The notes beneath the pieces are model-generated. The model worked only from the letters and a program-made list of their open reading frames with translations. It was not told where the DNA came from and ran no database searches. From positions 1 to 48,250 of the IMG/VR virus record IMGVR_UViG_3300025435_000029: a stretch of DNA of 48,250 nt. One strand, 5' to 3'. Positions 2,480 through 39,169 of this stretch are shown here, piece after piece (positions within the stretch are counted from its first letter, which is position 1; each line of letters opens with the position of its first letter). The position numbers were made by a program, and so were the translations under genes. Origin of the DNA: a virus.

Positions 2480-3265
2480 ATGACCCACAACACCTTTGTC
2501 ACAGCATTTAGAAGCAAGAATGGCAGCACGCTGCTGAGCACACTGCTCAACAGTCATCCACGGTATCGGGGCTATCGTATCAAGGGCCAGTCGGGCATAG
2601 GTCATGTGTTGGACCATGGTGATGCGCTGTTAGACGACGGAGCTCATTGGCCCACTGTGACACCTCCAGAATTTCTGCACAGTCTACGCACTTGGTATCA
2701 CAACTATGTGAATCCTCAGCATGTGCTGCATTCTGCCTGCAAATTCAACAACTTTCGCAATTACCGTTGGCTGCGGCATGTGTTTCCCAAAGATCCCATT
2801 TTGGTTGTGGTCAGACATCCCCTAGACAACTACATCAGTTGGAAGCACTGGCGCATCAAACACCAGGATCCACAGCCGTCACACAGTGACACTGTGCACA
2901 AATACTGGGACAAGTACATACCCATGGCCCATGCCAGTGTGAGCCAGATCACACTCTGTCATATTGTGTATTTTGAAGATTTGGTCTTGAAACCCCAGCA
3001 CACCATGCAGGAGGTTTTTGCCTGGTTGGGATTTGAACCTCATGAGGTGGATCTCAGTGAAACCACTGCCATCTATCAACACTATACCAGCTTTCCTCAG
3101 CTGCTCAGCTCTGATTCAGGTCTGATCCCAGCTGTGGTCAACAGACGGCATCTGCCAGGAGTCATATCTGCAGATGAACTGCACACACTGCAGCATTTGG
3201 TGCGCACCAGCGGCCTGTTGCAAAGCATATACGCAAGGTACAGCAGCGACTTCGCTACCCCCTGA
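2480..3265 (+). CDS. Sulfotransferase family protein
   Basis: A 261-residue plus-strand gene against the prevailing direction. The N-terminal FRSKNGSTLLSTLLNSHP (residues 10-27) is the PAPS 5'-phosphosulfate-binding loop of sulfotransferases, and VVVRHPLDNYISWKHW (around 110) matches the 3'-phosphate-binding motif with its Arg and Ser. The family moves sulfate from PAPS to a hydroxyl or amine of a sugar, lipid or protein; the acceptor cannot be read here. It starts at ATG 2480 directly after a late-type octamer, without a clear Shine-Dalgarno, so late expression is likely. Two more sulfotransferase-like genes lie at 26134 and 30662. It ends facing the next minus-strand gene, 72 bp away. Confidence 0.85.
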   Translation: MTHNTFVTAFRSKNGSTLLSTLLNSHPRYRGYRIKGQSGIGHVLDHGDALLDDGAHWPTVTPPEFLHSLRTWYHNYVNPQHVLHSACKFNNFRNYRWLRHVFPKDPILVVVRHPLDNYISWKHWRIKHQDPQPSHSDTVHKYWDKYIPMAHASVSQITLCHIVYFEDLVLKPQHTMQEVFAWLGFEPHEVDLSETTAIYQHYTSFPQLLSSDSGLIPAVVNRRHLPGVISADELHTLQHLVRTSGLLQSIYARYSSDFATP

Positions 3266-3337: not shown

Positions 3338-3703
3338 TCAGTGCACATCACTGAACCGCAGCTTGTACTCTGTGACATCCTTGCGATCCATCTCACCTGT
3401 GACCAGTACCATGATGCTGTCGGTCAGGACATTGTAGGTTGCGCGTATGCGGGGGTTATGACAGCGTTCCAACATGAACTGACCCTGCTCGCTGTCTACA
3501 AAACTGCTGAGATGATCGAACAGCCGTTGCTCAGCACTGCTGAGCAACACAATATACACAGTGCTGAACAAGAAGGCCACAGGTTGATCTATGTGCAGTG
3601 CCTGGGATCTGAAGGTTTCAGATAGGTCCAGCAGATGACGGTTGCAGGAATCTTCCAGCTGTGCACAGAGCGAGTGCCTGTTGGGAAAGGTTGTGAGGTT
3701 CAT
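3338..3703 (-). CDS. Unknown 121-aa phage protein ending YKLRFSDVH
   Basis: The start is set at ATG 3703, which overlaps the upstream stop as ATGA. The C-terminal half (DSIMVLVTGEMDRKDVTEYKLRFSDVH) is beta-rich and ends in a hydrophobic-aromatic pattern that resembles the F-x-L-T-W tail of many small proteins in this window, with RFSD in place of TW. The gene at 28450 ends almost the same way (RLRFSDAVSD). The N-terminal 90 residues are helical, with SSAEQRLFDHLSSF near the middle. No enzyme motif is visible. It is the last gene of a minus-strand operon and faces the plus-strand sulfotransferase. Confidence 0.65.
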   Translation of the reverse strand: MNLTTFPNRHSLCAQLEDSCNRHLLDLSETFRSQALHIDQPVAFLFSTVYIVLLSSAEQRLFDHLSSFVDSEQGQFMLERCHNPRIRATYNVLTDSIMVLVTGEMDRKDVTEYKLRFSDVH

Positions 3704-4026
3704 TGCCATGCCTGTGAAAATTGCGTCAGCTGCTGATCTGTGGCCAGATAAATGCGGCCGCTGCTGATTGCAGCCCCGCGCCATTTGGCCGCATGCCAGC
3801 ACCACAGATATTCTGCATCTGTATAACAGCGCAGATTCATCCAATGCTCGGCTTCACAGCCCGGACCCCACTGTGACCAACACCATTCACGCGCTGCGAA
3901 AAAACCAGGCAAACTGCAGGTCAGCACATGAGTCATGCAGCCCTCTAGACCATGGCCCCTGCGCAGTGCTCTTGCGGTCCATGTCATGGTGTTGACTGTG
4001 GGGTGAGAGCTGCGCGCTACCACCAC
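3700..4026 (-). CDS. Unknown Trp/Cys-rich small protein
   Basis: The listed start is GTG 4026, which overlaps the previous gene by 10 nt; ATG 3987 is an alternative without a clear ribosome site. The protein has many Trp and Cys residues (FFAAREWCWSQWGPGC; EYLWCWHAAKWRG) and ends DQQLTQFSQAWQ, which fits the shared F-x-x-x-W C-terminal tail. The beta-strand stretch ISSGRIYLATDQQL before the end matches the position of a similar strand in other members. Its stop overlaps the next start as ATGA, which supports translation of this frame. Function unknown. Confidence 0.55.
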   Translation of the reverse strand: MVVARSSHPTVNTMTWTARALRRGHGLEGCMTHVLTCSLPGFFAAREWCWSQWGPGCEAEHWMNLRCYTDAEYLWCWHAAKWRGAAISSGRIYLATDQQLTQFSQAWQ

Positions 4027-4769
4027 AGTGATTGGTAGTATTTGGCAAACAAGCGGCGGCCATTGGCCATGCGCTCATGCCAGGCATCTGCAGCCGCAGC
4101 ATCGTACACATGAGTGTCATTGGGACCAGTGTCCATGCGATGATATTTCACACCTTGGTAATCTTCGGTTACAGGCTGTCCGTTGACATCCACTGCGGTC
4201 CATGTGATGTCATGAGTGCCGCTGTGAAACTGGTCTTGGTAGTGGGAATCTGCATGCTGTTCAAAAGCCCAGATCATCTCGTCCAGCACCCAGTCCCAGC
4301 CTGCGTGATACTTCTTGTCAATCTCTGATTTCTCAGCGTCTGTGCACTGCAGGGTCTGGTCCCAGTGACTGTCATTGAAGATCTTGGTATCACGCTCGCT
4401 CATCTGCAGCTCTGGTGGTAGGTCCACATTGTCAACCCAGGGGCTGCCGTTCTTTTTGGTTCTGAGCATGCGCAGCATGGGCGCGATGATCAGTGCCAGT
4501 GTGTGGTCTGCACAGTAGACATCTGTGGGATCAATGCGCACGCTCACACGTCGGTCGCCTGCGTTTTGCCAGTGGTTGTGGATCCAGGCACAGATCTTGG
4601 CCAACCAGCTGTCATTGCCATGACGATCCACGGCCAGCCAACGACCCAGCGCATGTTGGCGATCAGCCCAGGGACTGTGGTCATCGCACTTGTTGGCCCA
4701 GAAGATGATCTTCTCGGCAATTTGATAGGGCCCAACCCAGCAGGGATAGCGGCTGATTTTTACTTGCAT
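4017..4769 (-). CDS. Conserved T4-like phage protein, 250 aa
   Basis: It starts at ATG 4769 behind GAGG. MQVKISRYPCWVGPYQIAEKIIFWANK and the ending RLFAKYYQSLWW match a family I recognise from T4-like marine and freshwater myoviruses, with the conserved centre WDWVLDEMIWAFEQ and DPTDVYCADHTLALIIAPML. No function is established for that family that I can name. It has no membrane segment or signal peptide. It is rich in Trp, Asp and His, and the acidic/aromatic core could bind metal, but that is speculation. It heads a run of coupled small genes. Confidence 0.75.
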   Translation of the reverse strand: MQVKISRYPCWVGPYQIAEKIIFWANKCDDHSPWADRQHALGRWLAVDRHGNDSWLAKICAWIHNHWQNAGDRRVSVRIDPTDVYCADHTLALIIAPMLRMLRTKKNGSPWVDNVDLPPELQMSERDTKIFNDSHWDQTLQCTDAEKSEIDKKYHAGWDWVLDEMIWAFEQHADSHYQDQFHSGTHDITWTAVDVNGQPVTEDYQGVKYHRMDTGPNDTHVYDAAAADAWHERMANGRRLFAKYYQSLWW

Positions 4770-7061: not shown

Positions 7062-7286
7062 TTACTCTGCGGGATCATGCTGGTCCCAGGTCAGTAGAAA
7101 CTGCAGACGCTGAGCTGGGGTTTCAAAAAACACACACAGACCCTGTAGCTCAAAACTCATGCATTGATCAGCAAACCATTGACAAATATCTGATTCATGT
7201 TCCAGCCATTGATGCACGTTGCCAATGAACACTGCTGGACGCAGATCCCAGGTTTCTATAGAGTGGTAGTTGTTATTATACCTCAA
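7062..7286 (-). CDS. Small protein of the F-x-L-T-W tail family
   Basis: The reading frame has no ATG near its beginning; TTG 7286, overlapping the stop of the phosphoesterase gene by 11 nt, is the best start. The C-terminal part reads VHQWLEHESDICQWFADQ, then FELQGLCVFFETPAQRLQFLLTWDQ. This matches the shared tail pattern WL...W...F...RLQFLLTW seen in the 18-25 kb genes. Coupling to the upstream gene supports translation. Function unknown. Confidence 0.55.
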   Translation of the reverse strand: MRYNNNYHSIETWDLRPAVFIGNVHQWLEHESDICQWFADQCMSFELQGLCVFFETPAQRLQFLLTWDQHDPAE

Positions 7287-18189: not shown

Positions 18190-18351
18190 GCTCCACACCA
18201 GCGCAAATTCCACCTAGGTGTTGCGGTCCCAGGGCCAAGTGACCTCTTGAGTTTTCATCCAGGATTTGACCTGAGAGGTGTTGTCTTGATCACGGAGCCA
18301 CCATTCTTGGGTAACATCATCGCCAACTTCACAAACTGGTTTGGGATTCAT
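18190..18351 (-). pseudogene. Truncated member of the MORN-like/LTW-tail family
   Basis: It starts at ATG 18351 in an ATGA overlap with the next array gene and reads MNPKPVCEVGDDVTQEWWLRD, one partial repeat, then WMKTQEVTWPWDRNT and a TAG at 18214-18216. Beyond the stop the frame still encodes VEFALVWS, the family tail. In the intact copies an Arg fills the stop position, so AGG to TAG is a likely single-base change. It also lacks the MORN-like repeats. It may still make a 45-residue peptide, or the tail if the amber is read through. Confidence 0.65.
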
Positions 18352-18869
18352 GCCCATGTTAATAAGAACTCCACTCGAGTTTCTTCATCGGGCCATGGCC
18401 AAGAAACTGCTTGGTCTTGCAGCCATTTTTCAACAGCCAGTGTGATATCTTCGCCGTTGAAAAACCATGCTGCTGTTCCATCTGCCAACACCACAGCAGG
18501 ACCGTCTGTTCTATGGCGTAGGTCATTCACCCACCACTGCTGTATTCCATCTGCTGATATAAAAGCAGGACCCGTGGTTCTATGGCGTTGGCCATTCTGA
18601 TACCACCACTGTGATCCATTTTCCCATACTACAGCAGGACCGTCTGTTCTATGCAGTTGGCCATTTTGATACCACTGCTGTGTTCCATCTGCCAATACCA
18701 CAGCAGGACCGTCTGTTCTATGGAGTAGGCCATTTACACGCCACTCTTGTGTTCCATCTGCCCATACCACAGCAGGACCCGCAGTTCTATGCAGTTGGCC
18801 ATTCGACAGCCAACGCTGAGTGCCACGGGCATCAACTCGACGAACTGGTTTGGGATTCAAATCGTCCAT
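18348..18869 (-). CDS. MORN-like repeat protein with LTW tail, copy 1
   Basis: A 173-residue protein with about five and a half copies of a 23-residue repeat, consensus HRTDGPAVVWADGTQEWYQN followed by GQ or similar. This matches the MORN_2/YwqK-like repeat, which forms a beta-meander and probably mediates binding. The C-terminal 40 residues (ITLAVEKWLQDQAVSWPWP..., ending EFLLTWA) are the tail shared with other small proteins here. The start ATG 18869 lies inside the stop of the next gene. No signal peptide. Bacterial YwqK has been called an antitoxin component; whether that holds here is unknown. Confidence 0.75.
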   Translation of the reverse strand: MDDLNPKPVRRVDARGTQRWLSNGQLHRTAGPAVVWADGTQEWRVNGLLHRTDGPAVVLADGTQQWYQNGQLHRTDGPAVVWENGSQWWYQNGQRHRTTGPAFISADGIQQWWVNDLRHRTDGPAVVLADGTAAWFFNGEDITLAVEKWLQDQAVSWPWPDEETRVEFLLTWA

Positions 18870-19312
18870 GTTAATAAGAACTCCACCCGCGTGGCTTCAT
18901 CGGGCCATGGCCAAGAAACTGCTCGGCTTTTCATCCATTTTTCAACGGCTCTTGTGATATTTTTGTCATTGAAATACCACTGCTGTGTTCCATCTGTTTC
19001 TATAACAGCAGGACCCGCAGTTCTATGGCGTTGGTCATTTTGATACCACCATTGTGCTCCATCTGCTGCTATAACAGCAGCACCGTCTGTTCTATGGCGT
19101 TGGTGATTTTGATACCACCATTGTGCTCCATTTGCTGCTATAATAGCAGGACCCGCAGTTCTGTGGCGTTGACCATGGACCCACCACGCCTGATACCCAT
19201 CTGCCAATACCACAGCAGGACCCGCTGTTCTATGCAGTCGGCCATTCAACAACCAACGCTGATTGCCCTGTTCATCAACTTCACAAACTGGTTTGGGATT
19301 CAAATCGTCCAT
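18857..19312 (-). CDS. MORN-like repeat protein with LTW tail, copy 2
   Basis: 151 residues, beginning MDDLNPKPVCEVDEQGNQRW, with four and a half repeats. Repeats 3 and 4 carry AAVIAADGAQWWYQN and are nearly identical. It ends ITRAVEKWMKSRAVSWPWP and a final FLLTWTI. Its start overlaps the previous stop by 13 nt. The near-identity with copy 1 at both ends suggests duplication of a whole gene followed by repeat gain and loss. Confidence 0.75.
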   Translation of the reverse strand: MDDLNPKPVCEVDEQGNQRWLLNGRLHRTAGPAVVLADGYQAWWVHGQRHRTAGPAIIAANGAQWWYQNHQRHRTDGAAVIAADGAQWWYQNDQRHRTAGPAVIETDGTQQWYFNDKNITRAVEKWMKSRAVSWPWPDEATRVEFLLTWTI

Positions 19313-19746
19313 GTTAATAAGAACTCCACTCGAGTTTCTTCATCGGGCCAGGGCCAGCTAATCGCTTGGCTTTTCATCCATTTTTCAACGGCTTTGGTGA
19401 TATCTTTGTCATTTACCCACCATTCTTGTCTTCCATTTGCACCGATCCAAGCAGGGCCATCGGTTCTATGGCGTTGGCCATTTGAATACCACTCCTGTGA
19501 TCCACCTGCCCATATAATAGCAGGACCGTCTGTTCTATGCAATAGGCCATTTTGATACCACCATTGTGTTCCACTTGCCCATACCACAGCAGGACCGTCT
19601 GTTCTATGGCGTTGGTCATTTTGATACCATTCTTGTGTTCCATTTGCTTTTATAACAGCAGGACCCGCAGTTCTATGGCGTTGGTCATTTTGATACCAAC
19701 GCTGAGTTCCACAGGCATCAACATCACACCAGGGTTCGGCGTTCAT
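19300..19746 (-). CDS. MORN-like repeat protein with LTW tail, copy 3
   Basis: ATG 19746 overlaps the upstream stop as ATGA. The 148-residue protein begins MNAEPWCDVDACGTQRWYQN and has four and a half repeats (variants WIGANGRQEW, IIWAGGSQEW), then ITKAVEKWMKSQAISWPWP and the FLLTWTI end. The N-terminal Cys in PWCxV is shared by copies 2 to 4 and may be functional. It is not a membrane protein. Confidence 0.75.
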   Translation of the reverse strand: MNAEPWCDVDACGTQRWYQNDQRHRTAGPAVIKANGTQEWYQNDQRHRTDGPAVVWASGTQWWYQNGLLHRTDGPAIIWAGGSQEWYSNGQRHRTDGPAWIGANGRQEWWVNDKDITKAVEKWMKSQAISWPWPDEETRVEFLLTWTI

Positions 19747-20351
19747 AGCCATGTCAATATCCACTCTGCCCGCGTTTCTTCATCGGAGAACGGCCAAGAA
19801 ACTGCTCGGCTTTTCATCCATTTTTCAACGGCTTCTGTGATATTTTTGCCATTTAGCCACCACTGCTGTGTCCCATCTGCTGATATAACAGCAGGACCGT
19901 CTGTTCTATGCAATAGGCCATTTTGATACCACCACTCTGCTCCATTTGCTGCTATAACAGCAGGTCCATCAGTTCTATGGTGTTGGCCATTTAGCCACCA
20001 CTGCTGTGTTCCATCTGCCCATACCACAGCAGGTCCATCAGTTCTATGGTGTTGGCCATTTTGATACCATTCTTGTGTTCCATCTGCCAATACCACAGCA
20101 GGACCGTCTGTTCTATGGCGTTGGCCATGGACCCACCACTCCTGTGTTCCCCTTGCCCATACCACAGCAGGACCGTCTGTTCTATGGCGTTGGCCATTTT
20201 GATACCAACGCTGAGTTCCACAGGCATCAACTTCACACCAGGGTTGGGAATTCAATTCGTCGCTGTCAACATCCGCGGTTCCTGCGCCGCTGCTGCAGGC
20301 CGCGGTGATGAAATTGTCGCGCTGTCCACTGCTGTGGCTGGGTTTACACAT
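19743..20351 (-). CDS. MORN-like repeat protein with LTW tail, copy 4
   Basis: The longest copy, 202 residues, with five and a half repeats and the end VSWPFSDEETRAEWILTWL. It has an extra N-terminal 35 residues of low complexity before the common PWCEVDACGTQRW. ATG 20351 overlaps the kinase stop by 8 nt; a TTG aligned with the other copies' Met is a possible alternative. This overlap ties the array to the RNA-repair genes. Confidence 0.7.
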   Translation of the reverse strand: MCKPSHSSGQRDNFITAACSSGAGTADVDSDELNSQPWCEVDACGTQRWYQNGQRHRTDGPAVVWARGTQEWWVHGQRHRTDGPAVVLADGTQEWYQNGQHHRTDGPAVVWADGTQQWWLNGQHHRTDGPAVIAANGAEWWYQNGLLHRTDGPAVISADGTQQWWLNGKNITEAVEKWMKSRAVSWPFSDEETRAEWILTWL

Positions 20352-20829
20352 GAGTCTGTACCACCCGCACTTGGTCAAAGCCTTCGGAGATCTGCGGCTG
20401 CACCGCTGTGGCAATCATGGTCTGCAGCACCTTGGCAGGAATGATCTTGCCGGGTCTTGCGGCCAAACGCTGTGTGAGTAGATCCGCCGGGGGTGTGGGA
20501 AACCACACAGCCACTCGACGATAGTGCTGAGGAACCTGCGCCAGTCGACTGCGGCGGCTTTTCACAGTGAGATTGGTCTGATCCCAGACCACTGACAGAT
20601 TCTTGGCCACAGCGGCGGAGAATTCACTCTGCATTTGAGCCACAGCAGGCCCGATGGCTCTGTCAAAGATTTCAGAATAAGTGGTGTGCTGCTGTGCTGC
20701 CCAGCGCTCAATCACCGCGTCGCTGCTGACCACCACTGTGGTTTTGGTGTCCCAGGGCTGACTGCTGACCCAGGTGCTCTTGCCAGAACCCGGCACGCCA
20801 CACAAGAGATAAAAAACTGGATCGGTCAT
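20344..20829 (-). CDS. 5'-polynucleotide kinase-like P-loop kinase
   Basis: A 161-residue P-loop kinase. GVPGSGKST (11-19) is the Walker A motif, VVVSSDAVIERW and VVWDQTNLTVKSRR give the Asp/Asn and Arg residues, and RPGKIIPAKVLQTMI matches the lid of T4 PseT/AAA_33 kinases. In T4 the kinase is fused to a 3'-phosphatase; here the phosphatase is a separate gene upstream (20903). Together with the RNA ligase at 12063 this would restore 5'-phosphate and 3'-OH on cut RNA. Start ATG 20829 follows AGGAG. The end overlaps the MORN-like array. Confidence 0.8.
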   Translation of the reverse strand: MTDPVFYLLCGVPGSGKSTWVSSQPWDTKTTVVVSSDAVIERWAAQQHTTYSEIFDRAIGPAVAQMQSEFSAAVAKNLSVVWDQTNLTVKSRRSRLAQVPQHYRRVAVWFPTPPADLLTQRLAARPGKIIPAKVLQTMIATAVQPQISEGFDQVRVVQTHV

Positions 20830-22743: not shown

Positions 22744-23058
22744 TCAGCCCCAAGTCATGACATATTCCACATGCTGTTCAGCAGTGAGTTCCACATAAAA
22801 TGTGGTCACCAACCTATAGGCATGGAGATGTTTGCAGCGCACATTCTCCATGACCATGTCAAGGTCTCGATCTCTCAACCACAGTTCTTGGTCCTGTAGT
22901 CCCACATGCGCTATGACCCAGTTGCGATACAGGGCGGTGTTGTAGGCTTTGACTGGGCCGCTGGCACTGACAGTCTCTCGGTAGATGATTTCACGTGTGG
23001 TAGGCATGTGGTTGGACCCAAATTGCAACCACATGCGCCAGTGCCTGTGGTTGTGCAC
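22744..23058 (-). CDS. LTW-tail family small protein, copy A
   Basis: A 104-residue protein if GTG 23058 is used; ATG 23034 or 23007 are alternatives. GTG directly abuts a GGTAAATA octamer. The body has a Tyr/Arg-rich strand (TTREIIYRETVSASGPVK), then WVIAHVGLQDQELWLRD, and the C-terminal AEQHVEYVMTWG is the shared tail. Other genes with this tail lie immediately upstream (B to E). No enzyme motif is visible. Confidence 0.6.
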   Translation of the reverse strand: MHNHRHWRMWLQFGSNHMPTTREIIYRETVSASGPVKAYNTALYRNWVIAHVGLQDQELWLRDRDLDMVMENVRCKHLHAYRLVTTFYVELTAEQHVEYVMTWG

Positions 23059-23066
23059 TATTTACC
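23059..23066 (-). promoter_or_regulatory. Late-type promoter GGTAAATA
   Basis: GGTAAATA on the minus strand ends directly before the GTG at 23058 and follows a 45-nt hairpin. The hairpin plus promoter looks like an operon boundary within the small-gene cluster. Confidence 0.4.
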
Positions 23067-23071
23067 AAAAC

Positions 23072-23116
23072 GTCGCTATCCATCCAGATGCCTTTAGGCC
23101 CTGGATGGATAGCGAC
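23072..23116 (-). terminator. Large stem-loop between small genes
   Basis: A perfect 16-bp stem (23072-23087 with 23101-23116) with a 13-nt loop that itself can pair (GCCTTTAGGC). On the minus strand a short TTTT follows. It lies between the LTW-tail genes B and A and may stop or process the transcript. Confidence 0.6.
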
Positions 23117-23122
23117 CAAGGA

Positions 23123-23326
23123 CTAACACCATGTGAGTTTGAATTGCAGCCAATGTGATTGCTGTTTGAACAGCCATGTGTTGCCAAAGCCACCAGTGAA
23201 TCTGCGTGACCACTCAATGTCCTCTTGACCTATATGTGCATTGCACCAAGCTGTCATAGTGGCCCAGTAGAGCCAATTGTCAACGAACACAGCATAGCGC
23301 CATGGAGGATCGCATGTCAGGACCAT
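23123..23326 (-). CDS. LTW-tail family small protein, copy B
   Basis: 67 residues from ATG 23326, which overlaps the upstream stop by 10 nt. The protein reads WRYAVFVDNWLYWATMTAWC, then an acidic DIEWSRRFTGG and the tail FKQQSHWLQFKLTWC. It shares the QQSH.L.F.LTW ending with the gene at 24625. No other domain is seen. Confidence 0.6.
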   Translation of the reverse strand: MVLTCDPPWRYAVFVDNWLYWATMTAWCNAHIGQEDIEWSRRFTGGFGNTWLFKQQSHWLQFKLTWC

Positions 23327-23679
23327 ACCAGCAAATATTGCACAGCATCTGCCTGCTGAGCAAAATGCAAACTCAAAATTTTTGTCAGTTGGGGCAGTGG
23401 TGGGTCACACATGACCCACTGATCTTGAGAAAAATTTGCCTCTAGCCAATCAGTCACTGACTGGCAATCAGCACGGGGCACTGGGCAATGCCATGGATAA
23501 TGAATAGACAACATCTGCTCTAGGCCATTGTCACTGAACAGCACAGCACTGCTGCCCCGCTGTGTCTGGCAGTGACAGGCCAGCAGTGCATGGTCACTCA
23601 TCTGCAGTGCCAGATGTGGATTGTGTATGATCCACGGCCACAGCGACCAGTCACCTCCACGATTGGCATGGCATATCAT
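23317..23679 (-). CDS. LTW-tail family small protein, copy C
   Basis: 120 residues from ATG 23679, coupled upstream as ATGA. The N-terminus is Trp/His/Cys-rich (GGDWSLWPWIIHNPHLALQM), with SSAVLFSDNG and the WLEANFSQDQW segment near the end. The end QQADAVQYLLVWS is a variant of the shared tail. Several His/Cys could bind metal. Function unknown. Confidence 0.6.
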   Translation of the reverse strand: MICHANRGGDWSLWPWIIHNPHLALQMSDHALLACHCQTQRGSSAVLFSDNGLEQMLSIHYPWHCPVPRADCQSVTDWLEANFSQDQWVMCDPPLPQLTKILSLHFAQQADAVQYLLVWS

Positions 23680-23894
23680 GCCACTGAGTCGGCAGCTATG
23701 GCAGGCTCACAGACCAACAGCCACCAGATGTGAAGCTGTTGCGACAGCATGACCACAGTGTGGTCACTGCCCAAGAGGTAGTCATCGCTGCTGGCATTGT
23801 GACACAGCCACTGAACACAGCGCCACCAATCGTGAGACAGCAGTTGCACACGATGGTAGTAGAGTGGTTTCAGAGGTGTGACAGTCCAGCGCAC
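23676..23894 (-). CDS. LTW-like small protein, copy D
   Basis: 72 residues from GTG 23894, which sits 1 nt after the upstream stop. HDWWRCVQWLCHN mirrors NGWWRCVVDT in copy E, so D and E are related. The end (VMLSQQLHIWWLLVCEP) has the tail shape with LLV in place of LTW. Coupling to copy C supports it. Confidence 0.45.
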   Translation of the reverse strand: MRWTVTPLKPLYYHRVQLLSHDWWRCVQWLCHNASSDDYLLGSDHTVVMLSQQLHIWWLLVCEPAIAADSVA

Positions 23895-23895
23895 A

Positions 23896-24186
23896 CTAAC
23901 CCCATGTCAAAGCAAACAGCACAGCATCGCAGCGGCGTTTGAATGCCCACTCATGTGTATTGGGCATGTGCGGCTTGCGCCAAAGTACACCAAGATCGCG
24001 CCACTTACCTTTAGGCAACTGCTGACTGCACCAGGTGTTGATGACATGACTGCGCAGCTGTTGCTGCTGTCCCTGCAGCGTCATCCTATAGATGTAATGC
24101 AGGCTTTCACCTGTGTCTACCACACAGCGCCACCAACCATTGGCATCCTTGTGCATCACCTGCTCCCAGTGCATCTGCACCCACAC
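23896..24186 (-). CDS. LTW-tail family small protein, copy E
   Basis: 96 residues from GTG 24186. MWVQMHWEQVMHKDANGWWRC opens a Trp-rich sequence; a Gln-rich region (LQGQQQQLRSH) lies in the middle, then WCSQQLPKGKWRDLGVLW and the tail RRCDAVLFALTWG. It is the first gene of a B-E run. A TGTAAATA octamer 370 nt upstream (24558) could drive it through antisense to the plus-strand gene at 24297. Confidence 0.55.
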   Translation of the reverse strand: MWVQMHWEQVMHKDANGWWRCVVDTGESLHYIYRMTLQGQQQQLRSHVINTWCSQQLPKGKWRDLGVLWRKPHMPNTHEWAFKRRCDAVLFALTWG

Positions 24187-24258
24187 TAGATGAAAATCGT
24201 GCTGGTGTCAAGTGCCAGTCACTTGCTAGCCGCCGTGACAGCGCTCCGCACAGGGTTT

Positions 24259-24277
24259 TAGACTGTCAAACAGTCTA
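24259..24277. other. Short perfect hairpin before the plus-strand gene
   Basis: Eight-base arms TAGACTGT/ACAGTCTA flank CAA. It lies between copy E and the late-type promoter at 24285. It may separate the two divergent units. No T-run follows on either strand. Confidence 0.45.
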
Positions 24278-24284
24278 CATAAGC

Positions 24285-24292
24285 ATTAAATA
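24285..24292 (+). promoter_or_regulatory. Late-type promoter ATTAAATA
   Basis: ATTAAATA is 4 nt before ATG 24297. The same octamer and almost the same spacing precede the plus-strand sulfotransferase at 2480. Confidence 0.55.
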
Positions 24293-24296
24293 CAGT

Positions 24297-24494
24297 ATGG
24301 TCTATTCTCTTCCAGTCACTGGCACCACAATTACAATGGGCGGCGTGTATCGAGCCTACTATGGAACCAGCTCTTTAAGCAACATATCACTCAGCGGCAC
24401 TCTGGGATCGCAGATAGGAATCACAGCTGGCACAGTGACCAGCCTGTCACAGAGTTTTGGTGGCAGAACCACGCCCTATCCCTACACCCCCTAA
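24297..24494 (+). CDS. Small virion-like protein, 65 aa
   Basis: MVYSLPVTGTTITMGGVYRAYYGTSS, then ISLSGTLGSQIGI and FGGRTTPYPYTP. This Ser/Thr/Gly-rich beta pattern, with SLPV..TTITMG...RAY and a Phe-Gly-Gly-Arg end, resembles small structural proteins of T4-like myoviruses, perhaps tail- or collar-related. The close late-type promoter supports late expression. It has no Shine-Dalgarno and is on the minority strand. Confidence 0.65.
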   Translation: MVYSLPVTGTTITMGGVYRAYYGTSSLSNISLSGTLGSQIGITAGTVTSLSQSFGGRTTPYPYTP

Positions 24495-24624
24495 TAGTAG
24501 GGACTGGGTCAGAACAACACCACAAACTACAGCAGTCCCAAACAGGTTGGTATAACATATTTACAGGTTTGGCCAGCGATAGCAGCTGAGGCTGCTACAG
24601 CGGTCCCGGGGGCATCATAGTTCC
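24495..24624. other. Intergenic 130 bp with short inverted repeats
   Basis: No convincing gene. GGGACT (24500s) pairs with AGTCCC about 35 nt later, and GCAGCTGAGGCTGC forms a small hairpin. A minus-strand TGTAAATA octamer lies at 24558-24565. It may hold the promoter for the minus-strand small-gene run. Confidence 0.35.
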
Positions 24625-24837
24625 CTAGCCCCAGGTCAGTGTGAACAGCAGGCAATGGCTCTGCTGCTGAAACACTATCTCAAATCGGCCCACAGCCCAG
24701 TCTTGATGCTCTGCGCCAACATGCTGCTCCAACCACAGCACCAGTTGGTTCCAATCCCAGACCGGGTAGCGGCAGACATAGCCATAGGGCCAGTTGAACT
24801 CATGCCCAGTGATGCTGCCTGATTCAGCAACACTCAC
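24625..24837 (-). CDS. LTW-tail family small protein, copy F
   Basis: 70 residues from GTG 24837, 5 nt before the end of the upstream membrane gene. The sequence SITGHEFNWPYGYVCRYPVW is aromatic, followed by DWNQLVLWLEQHVGAEHQDW and the tail FQQQSHCLLFTLTWG. The WL...W...F spacing is the same as in copies B and 7062. No known domain. Confidence 0.6.
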   Translation of the reverse strand: MSVAESGSITGHEFNWPYGYVCRYPVWDWNQLVLWLEQHVGAEHQDWAVGRFEIVFQQQSHCLLFTLTWG

Positions 24838-24841
24838 AGGC

Positions 24842-25051
24842 CTAGGTCCTGGTCTTGTGACCCATGAACACCAGCACATGCAGCCAGGCCATGGCCAACC
24901 AACTGCCAAAATTCAAAGGTATGGCCAACTGGGGCCACAGCTGATCCACAGCCAAGATGGTGAGACAGGGACTGGTCACTGCCCCCAGTGCCAGCACCAC
25001 ATAGGCCAGTGCCATGGTATCCTTGGGAATGGGGTCGTTGCTGGTGTTCAC
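24842..25051 (-). CDS. Two-pass membrane protein, 69 aa
   Basis: GTG 25051 is 8 nt from GAGGAG; ATG 25015 with AAGGA is an alternative. Hydrophobic helices at 13-35 (MALAYVVLALGAVTSPCLTILA) and 45-62 (FGSWLAMAWLHVLVFMG) predict an inner-membrane protein. The end (HKTRT) is basic, probably cytoplasmic. Function unknown. Confidence 0.6.
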   Translation of the reverse strand: MNTSNDPIPKDTMALAYVVLALGAVTSPCLTILAVDQLWPQLAIPLNFGSWLAMAWLHVLVFMGHKTRT

Positions 25052-26133: not shown

Positions 26134-26982
26134 TTATCGCCAGCTGTCACAAATGCTGAGTTTCTGTGTGGTTTGCGGCCTGTCATACAGGGCACGACCC
26201 TGCAGGGCAAACAGGTCAACCATGGGACAGATGTCTGCTGCTGCTGACTCACACAGTGCTGCTATGGCATCAAAGTTAGCCAGCACCTTGCGACCATTCT
26301 GCACATGATCAACATTCATGCGTGTGCTGCTGTGATGCCGAAGATCACTTGGAGCAAAACCCAGATCCGGATAGTGCTCTGTGTCCAATTGGTGATACCA
26401 TGCAATCTTGTGATATTTGTCTTGATTGAGCCAAACCCAGGTCCACCACAGCTTCAATCTCTGTATGTGCTGTTGCACTGTGTCTGTGCTCAGCGTGGTT
26501 TGAGTCTCATGCTGGGCAATCCACTGCTGGTCAGTCACACTCCATGTGTCTGTGGCCAAGCTGATGCAATGACTCAGCAGCTGCTGGCGTATGTCCCTGC
26601 GCACCAGCAGTATCTTGTAGAAACTGCGGTTGTGCCAAATGCGATCGCACACATGCTGTCTGTTGTGATAGCTGATGTCCAGTGCTGGAAAGATTTTGAA
26701 GATGGGAAAACCACCAGTGGCTGCGAATTCTGCCACAGAGTCTAGGCGATCCAATTCCATGGGATTTGGCCAGGGCCACGTGTGGTCAAACCATCCACCG
26801 TTGGGCAGTAGCCGACGGCTGAATCTGTCAAACGACGCTGCTGCAGGATTCAGCAGTTCTCCCAGCCACCACACACTGCTGTGCGACTGGCCAGCTGCAG
26901 TGTGCAGCTGATGGCTGAGATGTGTGCTGCCACTGCGTGGATGACTGATGATGCAGATGCCGTTGATCTGATCCAGTGTCAT
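26134..26982 (-). CDS. Sulfotransferase family protein
   Basis: 282 residues. ISHPRSGSTHLSHQLH (12-27) is the PAPS-binding P-loop with Arg-Ser-Gly-Ser-Thr, and LVRRDIRQQLLSHCISL matches the 3'-phosphate motif. It starts at ATG 26982 in an ATGA overlap with the topoisomerase subunit gene. The acceptor is unknown; phage sulfotransferases may modify host glycans or a virion protein. Confidence 0.8.
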   Translation of the reverse strand: MTLDQINGICIISHPRSGSTHLSHQLHTAAGQSHSSVWWLGELLNPAAASFDRFSRRLLPNGGWFDHTWPWPNPMELDRLDSVAEFAATGGFPIFKIFPALDISYHNRQHVCDRIWHNRSFYKILLVRRDIRQQLLSHCISLATDTWSVTDQQWIAQHETQTTLSTDTVQQHIQRLKLWWTWVWLNQDKYHKIAWYHQLDTEHYPDLGFAPSDLRHHSSTRMNVDHVQNGRKVLANFDAIAALCESAAADICPMVDLFALQGRALYDRPQTTQKLSICDSWR

Positions 26983-28449: not shown

Positions 28450-28743
28450 TCAGTCACTGACTGCGTCGCTGAATCGCAAGCGGGCTGCCACACGTTCGTC
28501 AGCTGTGATGCTGTGCAGTGCAAAGCAATATTCACTATGGGTCTGGTGCCTGTGCACGCGCACAGCAATGAGATCTGTGCTCCATGCTCTGACATTGGCA
28601 CTGCACCATTCTGCAACATCTGGGTTCAGAGTCAGAAAACTCACAATTGTGTTTTCAATTGCCCAGGTGAGATCTCTGACATGATCAATCCGCATTGTGC
28701 CCAATGGGACGGAAGGCTCACTGGCCTGCCACACACTATGCAT
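28450..28743 (-). CDS. Small protein ending RLRFSDAVSD
   Basis: 97 residues from ATG 28743, overlapping the topoisomerase stop; ATG 28695 is an alternative. The end (SITADERVAARLRFSDAVSD) and the one at 3338 (VTEYKLRFSD) share a -LRFSD variant of the window's C-terminal tail. AWSTDLIAVRVHRHQTHSEYCF is a beta-strand pair before it. It lies between the two topoisomerase genes, so it may be co-expressed with them. Function unknown. Confidence 0.5.
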   Translation of the reverse strand: MHSVWQASEPSVPLGTMRIDHVRDLTWAIENTIVSFLTLNPDVAEWCSANVRAWSTDLIAVRVHRHQTHSEYCFALHSITADERVAARLRFSDAVSD

Positions 28744-30622
28744 CCAATGCAATCCAAGCCTTGCGGGCATCTGCACCCCGGGGATCAAAGATCAACCTCA
28801 GTGCATCGCCAAGACCACCATCGTCTGTGATTGGTATCAGCTTGGGCTTAACCAGACTATGCCGCCAATCTGCTTCCTCCAACGAACCCAGACCCTTGGC
28901 GCGTGTGGGCTTGGGAGCGCCCTTCCAGTCCTTGGCATCATAGGTGTGATAGTCATCAGCATACCAGTAGTGGCGGTTCTTGCCCTTTTCCTGGATGATG
29001 AACGGTGTCTGCAGCGCCGAGAAGAATGTGGGTAATTTTGGGTCAAACAGCTCTGGCCAATGAAGATAGAAGAAGTTGACCAGCAGCGCAGTGATGTTGG
29101 CACCGTCTGGATCTTGGTCAGCTGCCAGCCATACCTGTCCATAACGCAAGTCGCCGCGTTCAGCACGCTGTCCCAGCGCACAGCCAATGCTGGTCATGAG
29201 ATCCATGAGGATCTGGTTGTCTAACAGTGCTTTGGGTGCTTCGCCTCTGACGTTGAGGATCTTGCCGCGCAGTGGCAGTGCACCATGCACTTCTGGATCG
29301 CGCACAGCACTGACCATGGTCTTGGCACTGTCACCTTCTGTGATCAGCAGAATGCACTTGCTGCGGTCCTTGCCATTGGCATCCAACAGCTTGGGCACCT
29401 TGGTGCGCATCATCTTGCGGGCCTGTTTGGCCAGTTCGGCATCGTCTTTTTTCTGCGTGCGAGCTGCGCAGCGAGCGTAGATTTGGTCAATCCATGGCTT
29501 GTGGTTTTTGATCACAGTTTTCAGCGTGGCATCATCTTCCAGCACGGTTTTGATGTAGCTGTCCACATCATCATTGATCAGCCGAGTCTTGCTTTGGCTG
29601 TCAAAATTTGGTGCATGCATCACAGTGACATTGTAGATCAACAGCCCATCTGCTATGTCTGAACGATTGGGCACCAGGCCTCGGCGCTTGCTTTCTCGTT
29701 CCAATGCACGGATCAGCCCACCATAGAACAGTCGCTTGAATGTGTCAATGTGCTGGCCACCATTGAATGCAGGAATGTCGTTCACTGTGGTGTGTAGATA
29801 CTCGCCCTCTGCAGCAAAGTTTGGCACGAGGTAGAATGTGCTCTTGAAGTTGCTGTGCTGAATGTCAATGGGTATAGTCACTCGCCCATCAAACAATGTC
29901 TTGGCCACTGTGGGCTTAACTGTGATGCGTTGCTTGTTGAAAGTGAAGCGGATTTTTGGATGATTTGCCGCAATTTCCATCATGCGTGCCTTGACAAAGG
30001 CCAAGGGCAACACAGCTTTCTTGAACACAGTCTTGCTGAGCCTGAAGGTCACAGTGGTGCCGGTCTTGCCTGTGTGGGGGACGATCACAGGATCGCGCAC
30101 ATCCAATTCAGGAAAGGTTTCGCTGCCCTCACGAAAGGTCTGCTGAAAGCGCTGGCCATCTCTGATGATGTCCACGCTGAACTGTTCGCTGCAGCTGACC
30201 ACAGTGCTGGCACCAATGCCATTGGTTCCACGCACCTCCTGCCTGGCACCAAAGTTGCGTCCAGCACGAGCCTGTGTGAGAGCCAAGGTGGCCTTGTGCA
30301 TGCCCTCGGCATCATCCCAGTCTATGGGAATGCCTCGCCCGTCGTCGCTGACTGAGAAACGCAGCTCCTTGGGATCATAGGTCACATCAATGGCACTGCC
30401 CTGAGCATGACCAATGACTTCATCCAAGGCATTGTCTAGAATTTCGCGAAATGCACAGTAGACCGCTGGAGTCCAAGTCACTTCCACGGGACTCAGCGCT
30501 TGGCCGTCCCAGTTGACTATGGTCTGAGTGTGTGGACTGCGACTGCCCAGATACATCTCCGTGCGCAGACGATGATGCGCGTAGTCAGTCAGTCTGGTGA
30601 TTTCGTTGGATTGGTTTTGCAT
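28736..30622 (-). CDS. 39: DNA topoisomerase II large (ATPase/TOPRIM) subunit
   Basis: 628 residues. The GHKL ATPase motifs are EILDNALDEV, SDDGRGIPIDW and GTNGIGAS (in the first 165 residues); the TOPRIM domain has ILLITEGDSAKT and DQDPDGANI. T4 encodes this as gp39 plus gp60; here both parts are one protein of ParE/GyrB length. It provides ATP-driven strand passage for the gp52-like subunit. The gene between the two subunits is a small unknown. No intron or break is seen. Confidence 0.92.
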   Translation of the reverse strand: MQNQSNEITRLTDYAHHRLRTEMYLGSRSPHTQTIVNWDGQALSPVEVTWTPAVYCAFREILDNALDEVIGHAQGSAIDVTYDPKELRFSVSDDGRGIPIDWDDAEGMHKATLALTQARAGRNFGARQEVRGTNGIGASTVVSCSEQFSVDIIRDGQRFQQTFREGSETFPELDVRDPVIVPHTGKTGTTVTFRLSKTVFKKAVLPLAFVKARMMEIAANHPKIRFTFNKQRITVKPTVAKTLFDGRVTIPIDIQHSNFKSTFYLVPNFAAEGEYLHTTVNDIPAFNGGQHIDTFKRLFYGGLIRALERESKRRGLVPNRSDIADGLLIYNVTVMHAPNFDSQSKTRLINDDVDSYIKTVLEDDATLKTVIKNHKPWIDQIYARCAARTQKKDDAELAKQARKMMRTKVPKLLDANGKDRSKCILLITEGDSAKTMVSAVRDPEVHGALPLRGKILNVRGEAPKALLDNQILMDLMTSIGCALGQRAERGDLRYGQVWLAADQDPDGANITALLVNFFYLHWPELFDPKLPTFFSALQTPFIIQEKGKNRHYWYADDYHTYDAKDWKGAPKPTRAKGLGSLEEADWRHSLVKPKLIPITDDGGLGDALRLIFDPRGADARKAWIALDA

Positions 30623-35355: not shown

Positions 35356-35919
35356 TCAAAGCACACAGCTGTCGCAGTCGGCTTGCGAATCTGATGACTC
35401 GTCAGATTCAGAGTCAGCAACTGCCAGATCGTCAGCATCGGCCATGAATCGTTTGATCTGTATTTCACCTTGGTTGTCTTTGGTGTTGAAATAGTACAGA
35501 GTTTTGCCACCCAGCTTGTAGTGCAACAGCAGATGCTGCAGCAACACACTCATGGGAATCTGCTCATCTGCGTAGAACTGGGGATTGTAGCTGGTGTTGA
35601 CACTGATGGCCTGATCAATGTATTTCTGCAAGACTGCAGCTATCTTGATATAGCCTTCCGGGCTGTGCTGATCCCACAGCAGCTCATAGCGCTTGCGCAA
35701 TTTGCGGTATTCTGGGACCACTTGTTTGAGTATACCATGCTTGCTTTGTTTGATGCTGACAAAACTGCGAGGCGGTTCGATACCATTGGTGGCATTGGCA
35801 ATCTGGGCAGAGGTGTTATGGCTAACACATCCATTAGATAACCGGTATGTTTCGTTTGATGTGCTAACGTCCCAGGTATGCTCAATTCCAACTGCTCGTG
35901 TAATTCTTTTAATCTTCAT
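35356..35919 (-). CDS. nrdA: Intein C-half + NrdA C-terminal part
   Basis: 187 residues. The first 35 (MKIKRITRAVGIEHTWDVST, ending CVSHN) are the C-terminal part of a split intein with blocks F and G: penultimate His, final Asn. Residue 36 is Thr, the +1 extein residue. The rest TSAQIANATNGIEPPRSF continues E. coli NrdA at its SETSSQISNATNGIEPP motif and contains KTLYYFNT, ending in DCDSC, the C-terminal redox pair. After trans-splicing the ligated NrdA would be about 779 residues, near the usual 760. The gene overlaps the homing-endonuclease stop by 11 nt. Confidence 0.93.
   Translation of the reverse strand: MKIKRITRAVGIEHTWDVSTSNETYRLSNGCVSHNTSAQIANATNGIEPPRSFVSIKQSKHGILKQVVPEYRKLRKRYELLWDQHSPEGYIKIAAVLQKYIDQAISVNTSYNPQFYADEQIPMSVLLQHLLLHYKLGGKTLYYFNTKDNQGEIQIKRFMADADDLAVADSESDESSDSQADCDSCVL
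35815..35919 (-). other. Split intein, C-terminal half
   Basis: 35-residue intein C-fragment encoded as the start of its own gene. Block F is HTWDVSTSNETYRLSNG and block G ends VSHN, followed by Thr. It has the length usual for naturally split inteins. Confidence 0.9.
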
Positions 35920-36901
35920 TGTACAATTCCTTTTCGGTTATCTCACATTTGCCTTGTTTAACCACATTTTCTTTCCACGGTATCATCCTTAAATTTCGTA
36001 TTGATCCTATTAACTCTGGAGGAACACCATTGATGTATCCCTGGCTTATAGAATAATTATGATCTAAGTGATAACCGGCGTCTACTCCTGCTAATGCTCT
36101 TTTATCATAATTTTCCAATGACAACAAGTCGTTCGCATTTGTATAGCGCCAAACTTCTTTTCGATATAGTGCATAATCCGACATGTCTTTTAATGGAACC
36201 CATAAATTTTTAGATTCAAAGGTTTTTCTAGTTTTTTCTATCCTCTTATTGAACTCGTCATCGCCTAGTGCAGATCTAGAACAATGCCCTCTTGTTGTTT
36301 TGATTTGTTGAGATATCTCGTCTGATGTCATCGGCGTTGTATTTTGCAAATGCGTTCGATAACTGTCAATTCCTATTTTTTTATCGTGTATAGCACGTAT
36401 CTGTTTTTTAGCGTAATCTAATGATTTTCCACGTTTAATATAATAGTCTATATGCAATGGACTAGTTTCGTATTGATATTGTAATGCAAGTTCTCTGGCT
36501 TCCTCGTGAATATATCCCTTACGAATATAGTATTCAACTGAAAATTTCGATTGAGATTTACCATTTTTAGCAGCTGCTTCCCAACCTTTTTTCAGAGAGT
36601 TGTTGAACCATTCCTCATATTTCATCTTACCAACATCATTTCCGTGTCGTTTAATAAAGTTATCTAATGATGTTGCCTTGTTAGCTTTATATGCCTTGAT
36701 ATATTCAATAGCAGCATCATATGAACACCCTTCCCTCACCATAATATAGTTTGGATCATAGGGGCTAGGTCTATTGTTTATTTTTTTACCCTTGTTTACG
36801 GCATTCCTAGCCTTCATCTTGGATATTATTTGCAGCGCATCTTCATACGAGCATTTGTCTCTCTTCATTATGTAACTTGGATCGTATGGGTTGGATTTCA
36901 T
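35909..36901 (-). CDS. Free-standing HNH homing endonuclease
   Basis: 330 residues, AT-rich compared with its neighbours. The C-terminal HLDHNYSISQGYING, then ELIGSIRNLRMIPWKENVVK (278-318) is an HNH-type nuclease site (His, Asp-His, Asn, Asn, Lys). The first 200 residues hold repeats of YDPxYIMxRxxCSYExAxx (residues 4-30 and 45-70) and related YYIxxG units (about 135 and 165), probably DNA-contacting modules. It lies exactly between the two intein halves, so it presumably cuts intein-less nrdA and spreads the arrangement. A GATAAATA promoter and a 10-codon leader precede it. The Vsr-like family seen in other fractured genes seems different. Confidence 0.85.
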   Translation of the reverse strand: MKSNPYDPSYIMKRDKCSYEDALQIISKMKARNAVNKGKKINNRPSPYDPNYIMVREGCSYDAAIEYIKAYKANKATSLDNFIKRHGNDVGKMKYEEWFNNSLKKGWEAAAKNGKSQSKFSVEYYIRKGYIHEEARELALQYQYETSPLHIDYYIKRGKSLDYAKKQIRAIHDKKIGIDSYRTHLQNTTPMTSDEISQQIKTTRGHCSRSALGDDEFNKRIEKTRKTFESKNLWVPLKDMSDYALYRKEVWRYTNANDLLSLENYDKRALAGVDAGYHLDHNYSISQGYINGVPPELIGSIRNLRMIPWKENVVKQGKCEITEKELYNED

Positions 36902-36930
36902 GTAAACCTCGGCATTGATGCATAGTTCAT
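36898..36930 (-). CDS. 10-codon leader ORF before the endonuclease gene
   Basis: MNYASMPRFT followed by TGA, which overlaps the endonuclease ATG as ATGA. The leader's ATG is 3 nt after the octamer GATAAATA. It could couple translation and so allow the endonuclease to be made from a leaderless transcript. Speculative. Confidence 0.35.
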   Translation of the reverse strand: MNYASMPRFT

Positions 36931-36933
36931 GAC

Positions 36934-36941
36934 TATTTATC
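36934..36941 (-). promoter_or_regulatory. Late-type promoter GATAAATA for the endonuclease
   Basis: GATAAATA lies directly after the stop of the NrdA N-part and upstream of the endonuclease. It would let the endonuclease and the NrdA C-part be transcribed apart from the N-part. Confidence 0.6.
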
Positions 36942-36943
36942 GT

Positions 36944-39169
36944 CTACGGCATCAATGCCACAATATCATCATCCTCTGTTAGGTCTCGGACCTCTACCCA
37001 TATTTGTTTACCAGACCTAGAAACTAATAATTTATGATTTTCGGTAAACTTGTAGATGTTACCATCTTCAAATTCTATCTCAGTCATAGGCTGCGGGCCA
37101 TTATAATAGCATTCATATGCAGTTATATTTCCGCTTAGTTCAATTGGTTTATCAAAGCTATATCGCTGACCTGGCATAACATTATCATGTACAGCGTCTA
37201 TGTCAATGCCGCCTAGATCTTGTATAAGTTCAGCAAGTGATATAATGCTTCCATCTGCTAATTGCATTTCATTATTAAGAGATTGACATTCAGCAGGCAT
37301 TATGGCCATGAGTGTGCTGTTGCGAATGCCATGCTGTTTCAGCTCTTGGCGCAGTGTTGCCCAGGGCATGCGTTCCACATGCGGAACCAACTCGTCAATG
37401 TCGCGCTTGCGAGTGTCAATGGGCACGATGCCCAGCGAGTACTTGGTCTCATGGTTCTTGAGGCAACTGCCTTTCTCACGAGCCAGATCCACTGATGCTT
37501 TGATCAGCCAGTAGCTCATGGCCTCCATGTACTCATCAACCAAGGGCAGAGCCGCAGGATCTGTGTAGCTCACGCGATTTTTGGCCAGCCAATAGGCAAA
37601 GTTGATGATGCCTATGCCCAGGGGTCGGCGATTCATGGTGCTGAGCTGTGCGGCTTTCACTGGATAGCTTTGGTAATCCAAGAGATTGTCCAGGGCCATG
37701 ACAGCCAATCTGCAGGGTCGTTCAAAGTCTGCAGGACTCTTGATGTTGCCCCAGTTGATGGCACTGAGTGTGCAGAGGCTGATTTCACCATCTGGGTCAT
37801 TGAGATCATTCAGTGGTTTGGTTGGCAAAGAAATCTCTGAGCACAAATTCGACTGACGAATGGGAGCCAGACTCTCGATAAAACTGCCATGTTGGTTGGT
37901 GTTGTCCACATTCTGTAGGTAGATGCGCCCTGTGTCCTTGCGTTCCTGCATGAAACTGCTGAACAGCTCCAGGGCCTTCACAGTTTTCTTGCGAATGCGC
38001 TTGTTGCGCTCTGCTGCTTCGTACAGTGAGCGAAAGCGATCCTGATCGCTGAAGAATGCATCATACAGACCGGGCACGTCGCTGGGACTGAACAGAGTGA
38101 TGTCTGCACCTTGGATCAGTCGTTCGTAGAACAGCTTGCTGAACTGCACACCATAGTCCATGTGACGCACACGGTTGTCTTCTGTGCCACGATTGTTCTT
38201 CAGAACCAATAGATCTTCAACTTCCAAATGCCAAATGGGGAAATACACTGTGGCTGCACCGTTGCGCACCCCGCCCTGGCTGCAGCTGCGAGTGGCAGCT
38301 TGGAACAGCTTGAAGAACGGTATCACGCCAGTGTGGCTGGCATCGCCATTGCGTATGGGACTGCCCATGGCACGTATGCTGCCTGCACCAATGCCAATGC
38401 CAGCCTTCTGGCTGACATATTTCACTATGGCACTGGCTGTGGCATTGATGCTGTCCAAGCTGTCGCCTGCTTCAATCACCACACAGGAACTGAACTGCCG
38501 CTGAGGAGTGCGAACTCCGGCCATGATGGGTGTGGGCAGGCTGATGTCATGCCGGCTGATGGCATCGTAGTATTCACGAATCACAGACAGGCGTGTGGCA
38601 GGATTGTGATTGATAAACAGTGTGGCTGCTATCAAGGCATAGGCCATCTGTGGTGTTTCTTTGATCTCACCAGTCACACGATTCTGCACCAGATATTTGC
38701 CGCGCAGCTGTTCCATGGCCACATAGGTCAGAGCATTGTCGCGATCGTGATCAATAAAGCCATTGATTTCATCCCACTCGGCAGCAGTGTAGCACTGCAG
38801 CAGCTGGGGATCATAGAATCCATCGTTGATGTTTTTGACCAACAGATCCCTGATGTGCCAAGGCACAAAGTCGCCATAGACAACCTTGCGCAGATGATAA
38901 TTGACCAAACGTCCGGCCACATACTGATAATTTGGCGACTCTTCACTGATGAGATCAGCTGCTGCTTTGATCAGAGTTTCCTGCACAGCAGTGGTCTTGA
39001 TGTTTTGATAGAACTGGATTTGGCTTTTGATCTCAACTTCACTGGCGCTCACACCAGTGATGCCTTCTGTGGCCCAAAACACCACCTTGTGCATTTTTTC
39101 TATGTCCAAAGGCTCGCGAGTGCCGTCGCGTTTGGTCACTAGGATGTCTGTTTTGCTTGCCATGGCCAT
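36944..39169 (-). CDS. nrdA: NrdA N-terminal part + intein N-half
   Basis: 741 residues: 627 of class Ia ribonucleotide reductase large subunit then 114 of intein. VTKRDGTREPLDIEKMHKVVFW is the N-terminal ATP-cone; SSCVVIEAGD holds the first redox Cys, NLCSEISLPT the active Asn/Cys/Glu, ISLCTLSAIN the second redox Cys, and MAIMPAE is the extein end. The protein alone would lack the C-terminal redox pair and the NATNGIEPP loop, so it needs splicing. A CGTAAATA octamer lies 59 nt upstream of ATG 39169. Confidence 0.93.
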   Translation of the reverse strand: MAMASKTDILVTKRDGTREPLDIEKMHKVVFWATEGITGVSASEVEIKSQIQFYQNIKTTAVQETLIKAAADLISEESPNYQYVAGRLVNYHLRKVVYGDFVPWHIRDLLVKNINDGFYDPQLLQCYTAAEWDEINGFIDHDRDNALTYVAMEQLRGKYLVQNRVTGEIKETPQMAYALIAATLFINHNPATRLSVIREYYDAISRHDISLPTPIMAGVRTPQRQFSSCVVIEAGDSLDSINATASAIVKYVSQKAGIGIGAGSIRAMGSPIRNGDASHTGVIPFFKLFQAATRSCSQGGVRNGAATVYFPIWHLEVEDLLVLKNNRGTEDNRVRHMDYGVQFSKLFYERLIQGADITLFSPSDVPGLYDAFFSDQDRFRSLYEAAERNKRIRKKTVKALELFSSFMQERKDTGRIYLQNVDNTNQHGSFIESLAPIRQSNLCSEISLPTKPLNDLNDPDGEISLCTLSAINWGNIKSPADFERPCRLAVMALDNLLDYQSYPVKAAQLSTMNRRPLGIGIINFAYWLAKNRVSYTDPAALPLVDEYMEAMSYWLIKASVDLAREKGSCLKNHETKYSLGIVPIDTRKRDIDELVPHVERMPWATLRQELKQHGIRNSTLMAIMPAECQSLNNEMQLADGSIISLAELIQDLGGIDIDAVHDNVMPGQRYSFDKPIELSGNITAYECYYNGPQPMTEIEFEDGNIYKFTENHKLLVSRSGKQIWVEVRDLTEDDDIVALMP
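36947..37288 (-). other. Split intein, N-terminal half
   Basis: 114 residues from Cys1. Block A is CQSLNNEMQLADG; block B is GNIYKFTENHKLLV with the Thr-x-x-His pair, then IWVEVRDLTEDDDIVALMP and the stop. It has no endonuclease domain. Confidence 0.9.

Follow-up and report, generated by a model that had tools for sequence, protein, structure and literature searches.

A large family of small proteins with F-x-L-T-W endings in Phosso-like jumbo phages

Small genes with F-x-L-T-W endings in the window

The window analyzed here (positions 1 to 48,250 of IMG/VR virus record IMGVR_UViG_3300025435_000029) derives from a jumbo phage genome, of which it covers 48 kb, and carries nearly all of its genes on the − strand. 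Among 50,697 phage records, the nearest matches to its topoisomerase large subunit were found in Sinorhizobium phage Phosso (54%) and Agrobacterium phage Atu_ph07 (51%), and contigs of 453 and 519 kb are among its relatives in IMG/VR. Two sulfotransferase-like proteins (2480–3265 and 26134–26982, with SHPRSGSTHLS and FRSKNGSTLLS motifs) were recognized by eye, as was a ribonucleotide reductase large subunit gene (35356–39169, − strand) that looks interrupted by a split intein. Its first ORF (36944–39169) runs past ...MAIMPAE into an intein-like N-terminal part, within which it stops, an ORF for an HNH-type endonuclease (35909–36901) lies between the two halves, and a third ORF (35356–35919) opens with an intein-like C-terminal part ending in SHN and followed by TSAQIANATNG; judged from the sequence, the gene looks fractured, its halves separated by a free-standing endonuclease.

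An initial annotation of the window had proposed that a set of its small proteins share an F-x-L-T-W C-terminal tail, and all of the endings it quoted are present on the − strand at the positions it gave. A DNA pattern for F-x-L-T-W matched seven times on the − strand and never on the + strand, with no match on either strand in a backwards-read control, while a looser C-terminal pattern applied to every ORF of the window gave 15 matches on the − strand (a few of them chance ORFs) and none on the + strand. The endings are real, are confined to the coding strand, and occur far above chance. An alignment scan of IMG/VR with the tails alone showed no sufficiently conserved stretch. Since queries with two of the window proteins (23896 and 23317) and one MORN-like protein found no relatives in IMG/VR, the wider family was traced from the topoisomerase locus and with a DNA pattern for AMLFKLTW.

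Five core members, all on the − strand, matched a 65-column profile built solely from other phages (relatives-only profile) with E values from 3.7e-10 to 2.9e-5 and were aligned to the family by hhalign with probabilities of 85–97%; the best E value in 20x shuffled window ORFs was 0.11. These are the genes at 23123..23326 (67 aa, ending FKLTWC; E = 3.7e-10; hhalign 95.9%), whose product consists of the domain over almost its full length, 24625..24909 (94 aa, FTLTWG; E = 3.4e-8; 96.6%), 23896..24186 (96 aa, FALTWG; E = 6.8e-8; 96.6%), 23317..23679 (120 aa, YLLVWS; E = 4.3e-6; 85%), and 7062..7286 (74 aa, FLLTWDQHDPAE; E = 2.9e-5; 94%). For these genes the proposed family stood; the genes at 22744 and 3700 and the MORN-like genes, which had been included with them, could not be established as members by the profile tests.

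The gene at 22744..23058 (− strand; 104 aa, ending YVMTWG) is a possible distant member, with an E value of 0.1 against the relatives-only profile and a profile–profile probability of 16%; its orthologues (in L040, L006, L007, L017, and L021) end variably, as LQLTFG, LKLTLG, or YRLVWG. Another small gene within the cluster (23676..23894, − strand) has a vaguely similar layout, and its membership is unsupported (hhalign 11.6%). The gene at 3700..4026 (− strand; ending FSQAWQ) was rejected on sequence, as it showed no profile similarity to the family (E = 87–200; profile–profile 0.7%); its orthologue in the related phage G004 (44% identity) adjoins a true member. The adjoining gene in the window (4017–4769, − strand) matches phrog_11543, which is of unknown function (E = 5e-37).

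Four tandem genes at 18348..20414 (− strand), mutually very similar, encode beta-hairpin repeats of MORN-like type (HRtDGPA, read in the sequence) and end in FLLTWA, FLLTWTI, FLLTWTI, and WILTWL, respectively; a further truncated copy, ending VKSWMKTQEVTWPW, is found at 18214–18357. These genes have weak Pfam matches to DUF6745 and MORN_2. Their inclusion in the family was not supported: their tails gave E values of 0.02 to 7 against the relatives-only profile, profile–profile comparison gave 25% over 38 columns (shuffles ≤2.9%), and homologues in G004 (235785–236449) end in LLKYG or ILQYG. Core members have neither HRtDGPA repeats nor a MORN match, and in the window only the four genes at 18348–20414 carry the repeats. 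The LTW end of the MORN-like proteins is, as judged from these sequences, probably an independent C-terminal cap.

Tail, domain, and predicted fold

The shared ending had been taken for a module carried by unrelated N-terminal parts. We therefore compared bodies alone, using a profile from 186 tail-bearing proteins outside G012 (a 417 kb contig) whose ends were cut from approximately six residues before F-x-L-x-W, and scoring held-out G012 ORFs with ends likewise cut. This tail-less profile separated tail-bearing G012 ORFs from the rest with an AUC of 0.98, and the top-scoring “negatives” were mostly family members with variant ends (e.g., FKLTF); the bodies are thus homologous, and those of the core members are not unrelated as had been thought. 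In the window, the tail-less profile matched 7062 (12.7 bits; E = 0.0095), 23896 (E = 0.019), and 23123 (10.3 bits; E = 0.054), and by itself gave no clear score for 24625, 23317, or 22744.

The best tail-less match in the window was a gene that the initial annotation had not listed (28450..28788, − strand; E = 0.001), located between two topoisomerase subunit genes. This sixth member, which aligns to the family together with its orthologues (hhalign 84%), has a degenerate tail (VAARLRFSDAVSD); the gene in the same slot in related phages ends in FQLTWT or FYLTWA (syntenic L012:11883–12176 and L020:751–1065), showing that a gene can persist after its tail has decayed. The slot between the topoisomerase large and medium subunit genes is occupied in most related phages (L001–L020) by a small gene with very variable sequence and tail; in G004 it is empty, the medium subunit following directly, and in Phosso it holds four small genes.

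AlphaFold models, run with 101 family sequences, were obtained for a distant 78-aa array member (L050:6325–6561; pLDDT 86.6, pTM 0.73) and for the window protein at 23896–24186 (pLDDT 80.5), with moderate confidence over the N-terminal half. Both models have the element order beta-alpha-beta-beta-alpha, and in both the A-x-L-F-x-L-T-W stretch lies within the last helix. Both also retrieved overlapping, uncharacterized structures from uncultured phages, some with a probability near 1 (E = 3e-3 or weaker), and the 23896 model additionally retrieved Atu_ph07 proteins. In the modeled layout, the first strand carries a conserved aromatic residue and the first helix an invariant Trp (W-L/C-x-E-N); another Trp precedes strand 2, strand 3 contains F-x-F, and the final helix reads A-M-L-F-K-L-T-W(-G-G). 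The looser pattern of Trp and Phe residues noticed ahead of the tail belongs to the family. The F-x-L-T-W motif is accordingly predicted to be the C-terminal helix of one compact domain of approximately 65–80 aa that makes up most of each protein, the proteins being approximately 60–150 aa long with one dominant domain.

Across the 101 members, the near-invariant columns are all aromatic or aliphatic, namely W/Y 11, W28, W/Y45, F62, A68, L70, F71, L73, and W75, and the main conserved polar residues are K72 (92%) and T74 (70%); no conserved polar set suggesting catalysis was found among these members. Net charge is spread around zero (about −10 to +7, with a median of about −1 to 0), a range unlike that of a uniformly nucleic-acid-binding or DNA-mimicking family and as expected for diverse partners. 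This is the signature of a core that is conserved and a surface that is free. In the arrays of two contigs, L091 and L050, many members end in -W-G-G plus one residue; the plain reading is a glycine helix cap, and this ending may also represent a processed di-glycine end.

These results make it very improbable that a sorting, assembly, or partner-binding tail has spread onto unrelated proteins, as the initial annotation had suggested. Conservation is highest in the tail (A, F, K, L, and W each at least 90%), the domain ends no more than six residues from the C-terminus in 179 of 214 members, and a similar end occurs on the MORN-like proteins, all of which would fit a grafted tail; this idea is already largely refuted, however, by the homology of the tail-less bodies, by the many proteins that consist of the domain alone (57–70 aa), by true members with degenerate tails, and by the MORN-like homologues that lack the tail elsewhere. 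Chance or convergence, giving short hydrophobic C-termini that contain Trp in a phage rich in this residue, would account for 3700, the MORN-like genes, and 22744, which fail the profile tests, and is refuted for the core members, where it has practically no likelihood given profile E values down to 4e-10 with no comparable shuffle and purifying selection between orthologues.

Copy number, distribution, and evolution of the family

An iterated profile identified 214 ORFs across three complete contigs or genomes and 120 kb of G002, with no shuffled match at 1e-3 among 11,346 ORFs and one at 1e-2. G012 carries 93–101 copies, Phosso 49–61, and the 519 kb contig G004 28–39 (ranges reflecting two profiles and cut-offs), while Atu_ph07 has three members by profile; copy counts in the family-bearing phages were 93, 79, 75, 69, 49, 28, 12, 5, and 3. 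The family thereby represents approximately 16% of the genes of G012 (from a total of approximately 637 non-overlapping ORFs of at least 60 aa), 9% of those of Phosso, and 6% of those of G004. The arrays run head to tail, and the longest, in G012, comprises 48 consecutive family genes. This ranks among the largest expansions of a gene family seen in phages, and we regard the homology of the copies and their expansion as nearly certain. The expansion does not extend through the whole clade, since the closest relatives of the window hold only about 3–5 recognizable members.

The family is widespread in related phages. No copies were found by profile search in T4, P-SSM2, RaK2, HTVC008M, phiKZ, or phage G. 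Against the 50,697 phage records, tblastn with one array member gave no match, and tblastn with nine Phosso members matched only Phosso and Atu_ph07; divergence among the members exceeds what BLAST can bridge, and the family may therefore be present in further cultured phages. Among bacteria, two of 190 genomes sampled from the class of Novosphingobium carry the family (one of them already known to match), as compared to none of 101 from the class of Paenibacillus. Two of the four bacterial matches to the AMLFKLTW DNA pattern, in Vreelandella and Paenibacillus, were coincidences. As far as sampled, the family is restricted to phages and a few alphaproteobacterial genomes, in which the copies are probably prophages. 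One or two family genes each were also seen in small IMG/VR records (33–36 kb) and in Rhizobium and Novosphingobium contigs (L092 2001–2680, which equals L104; L106 2034–3295; and L076 7280–7585), probably prophages or plasmids.

The family is previously unnamed and undescribed, in agreement with the initial remark that no named domain was known for it, and nothing in PHROGs, Pfam, NCBIfam, PADLOC, or solved structures matches it credibly. When 101 members were scanned, PHROGs gave no match, and the matches elsewhere were isolated ones, each by a single member, in Pfam (E = 0.009–0.01), NCBIfam (E = 5e-4 and 2e-3), and PADLOC (E = 0.006); no match was found in the PDB by sequence. No paper naming the motif was found in the literature, and a term search of the Atu_ph07 paper (PMC6102473) and of that on AP-J-162, a related phage (PMC11242549), found no mention of such a family. 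The hypothetical proteins of Phosso (PV764938) and Atu_ph07 that are direct members by profile are annotated just as hypothetical in the regions read. In Bacillus phage G, a lineage-specific expansion of zinc ribbons to approximately 35 copies has been called unprecedented (Iyer et al. 2021, PMC7824862); in both cases a small domain has multiplied many times over within a single jumbo phage genome, but the family described here is an unrelated domain with no Cys ligands, reaches approximately 95–101 copies per contig with a run of 48, and is absent from phage G itself.

The copies are conserved as individual genes. L050 and L091 hold 27 and 37 members, respectively, among which 20 reciprocal best pairs occur in matching order with a pooled dN/dS of 0.167, and therefore each copy is maintained as itself; values for the collinear orthologue pairs range from 0.06 to 0.46, with frames intact. 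Such purifying selection between orthologues shows constraint rather than an arms race. G012 and G014 (101 and 81 members) share 46 pairs with a median identity of 39%, as compared to 63% for their large ORFs; family orthologues diverge faster than large genes. Paralogues within one genome are highly diverged and are not recent copies.

Possible functions of the copies

The family would represent a stable non-enzymatic scaffold that was duplicated in the Phosso-like jumbo-phage lineage, with divergence of the copies after duplication, each copy now binding a different partner; the copies, which appear to sit in blocks of closely spaced accessory genes, would most likely have host proteins as partners, during takeover or counter-defence. 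A non-enzymatic scaffold with different host targets is considered likeliest because nearly all of the conserved residues belong to the hydrophobic core, and neither a catalytic set nor a consistent charge is seen. Lytic phages rich in small accessory genes usually turn them against the host, which is why host takeover or counter-defence is proposed. The host-takeover clusters of T4 and SPO1 are blocks of many small, variable, mostly dispensable early genes, and the family arrays resemble them in being blocks of many small variable genes; the T4 and SPO1 genes are mostly mutually unrelated, however, while a family block consists of copies of one domain. As an overall explanation, an expanded scaffold family whose copies may act as host-directed binders is about an even call; the mechanism itself, binding of host proteins in takeover or counter-defence, falls slightly short of that, and the fuller proposal, that one scaffold was multiplied to as many as approximately 100 copies and diversified into an armoury of proteins that bind host proteins and defence systems, is a tentative one.

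It is unlikely that the proteins are RRM-like RNA binders, with the RRM fold minus its last strand and with copies acting on different host or phage mRNAs or tRNAs. The order of strands and helices corresponds to the first five RRM elements, tRNA genes are interspersed in the Phosso arrays with translation genes nearby, and the weak matches topping a Foldseek search of the PDB include the telomerase p65 xRRM (4erd) and several RRMs. None of these matches was significant (best E = 0.37), however, and the fourth strand, which would complete the beta-alpha-beta-beta-alpha-beta order of the RRM/ferredoxin-like fold, is absent in both models. The family is also not basic, as its median net charge indicates. 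The strand-3 F-x-F, compared with the RNP1 and RNP2 aromatic signatures of the exposed RRM sheet face, is conserved (F60 and F62) and may lie on either face of the sheet; positions 59 and 61 beside these residues are not conserved aromatics.

A role as virion or intracellular structural proteins (internal head, decoration, or compartment proteins) in many variants is less likely again. The proteins are small, numerous, and apparently non-enzymatic, and large phages package many small proteins, but a copy number ranging from 3 to approximately 100 among related phages and the great divergence of the copies both misfit a stoichiometric part of a particle. Selfish or neutral amplification, in which recombination grows the arrays and the individual copies have no function, would explain head-to-tail arrays and copy numbers that differ greatly among relatives; the intact collinear orthologues under purifying selection and the high divergence of paralogues within a genome argue against it and leave it a slim chance.

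New domain families of unknown function are common in phages; the scale seen here is uncommon, in that a single undescribed family accounts for approximately 6–16% of the genes in some jumbo phages. Small genes without an explanation abound in jumbo phage genomes, and hundreds of these orphans thus become one testable question, for which Phosso on Sinorhizobium meliloti provides a cultured model. If the copies are anti-host binders, they would offer a wealth of new inhibitors directed at bacterial proteins and defences, and the family would parallel, on the phage side, the large gene families that big eukaryotic viruses devote to host interaction.
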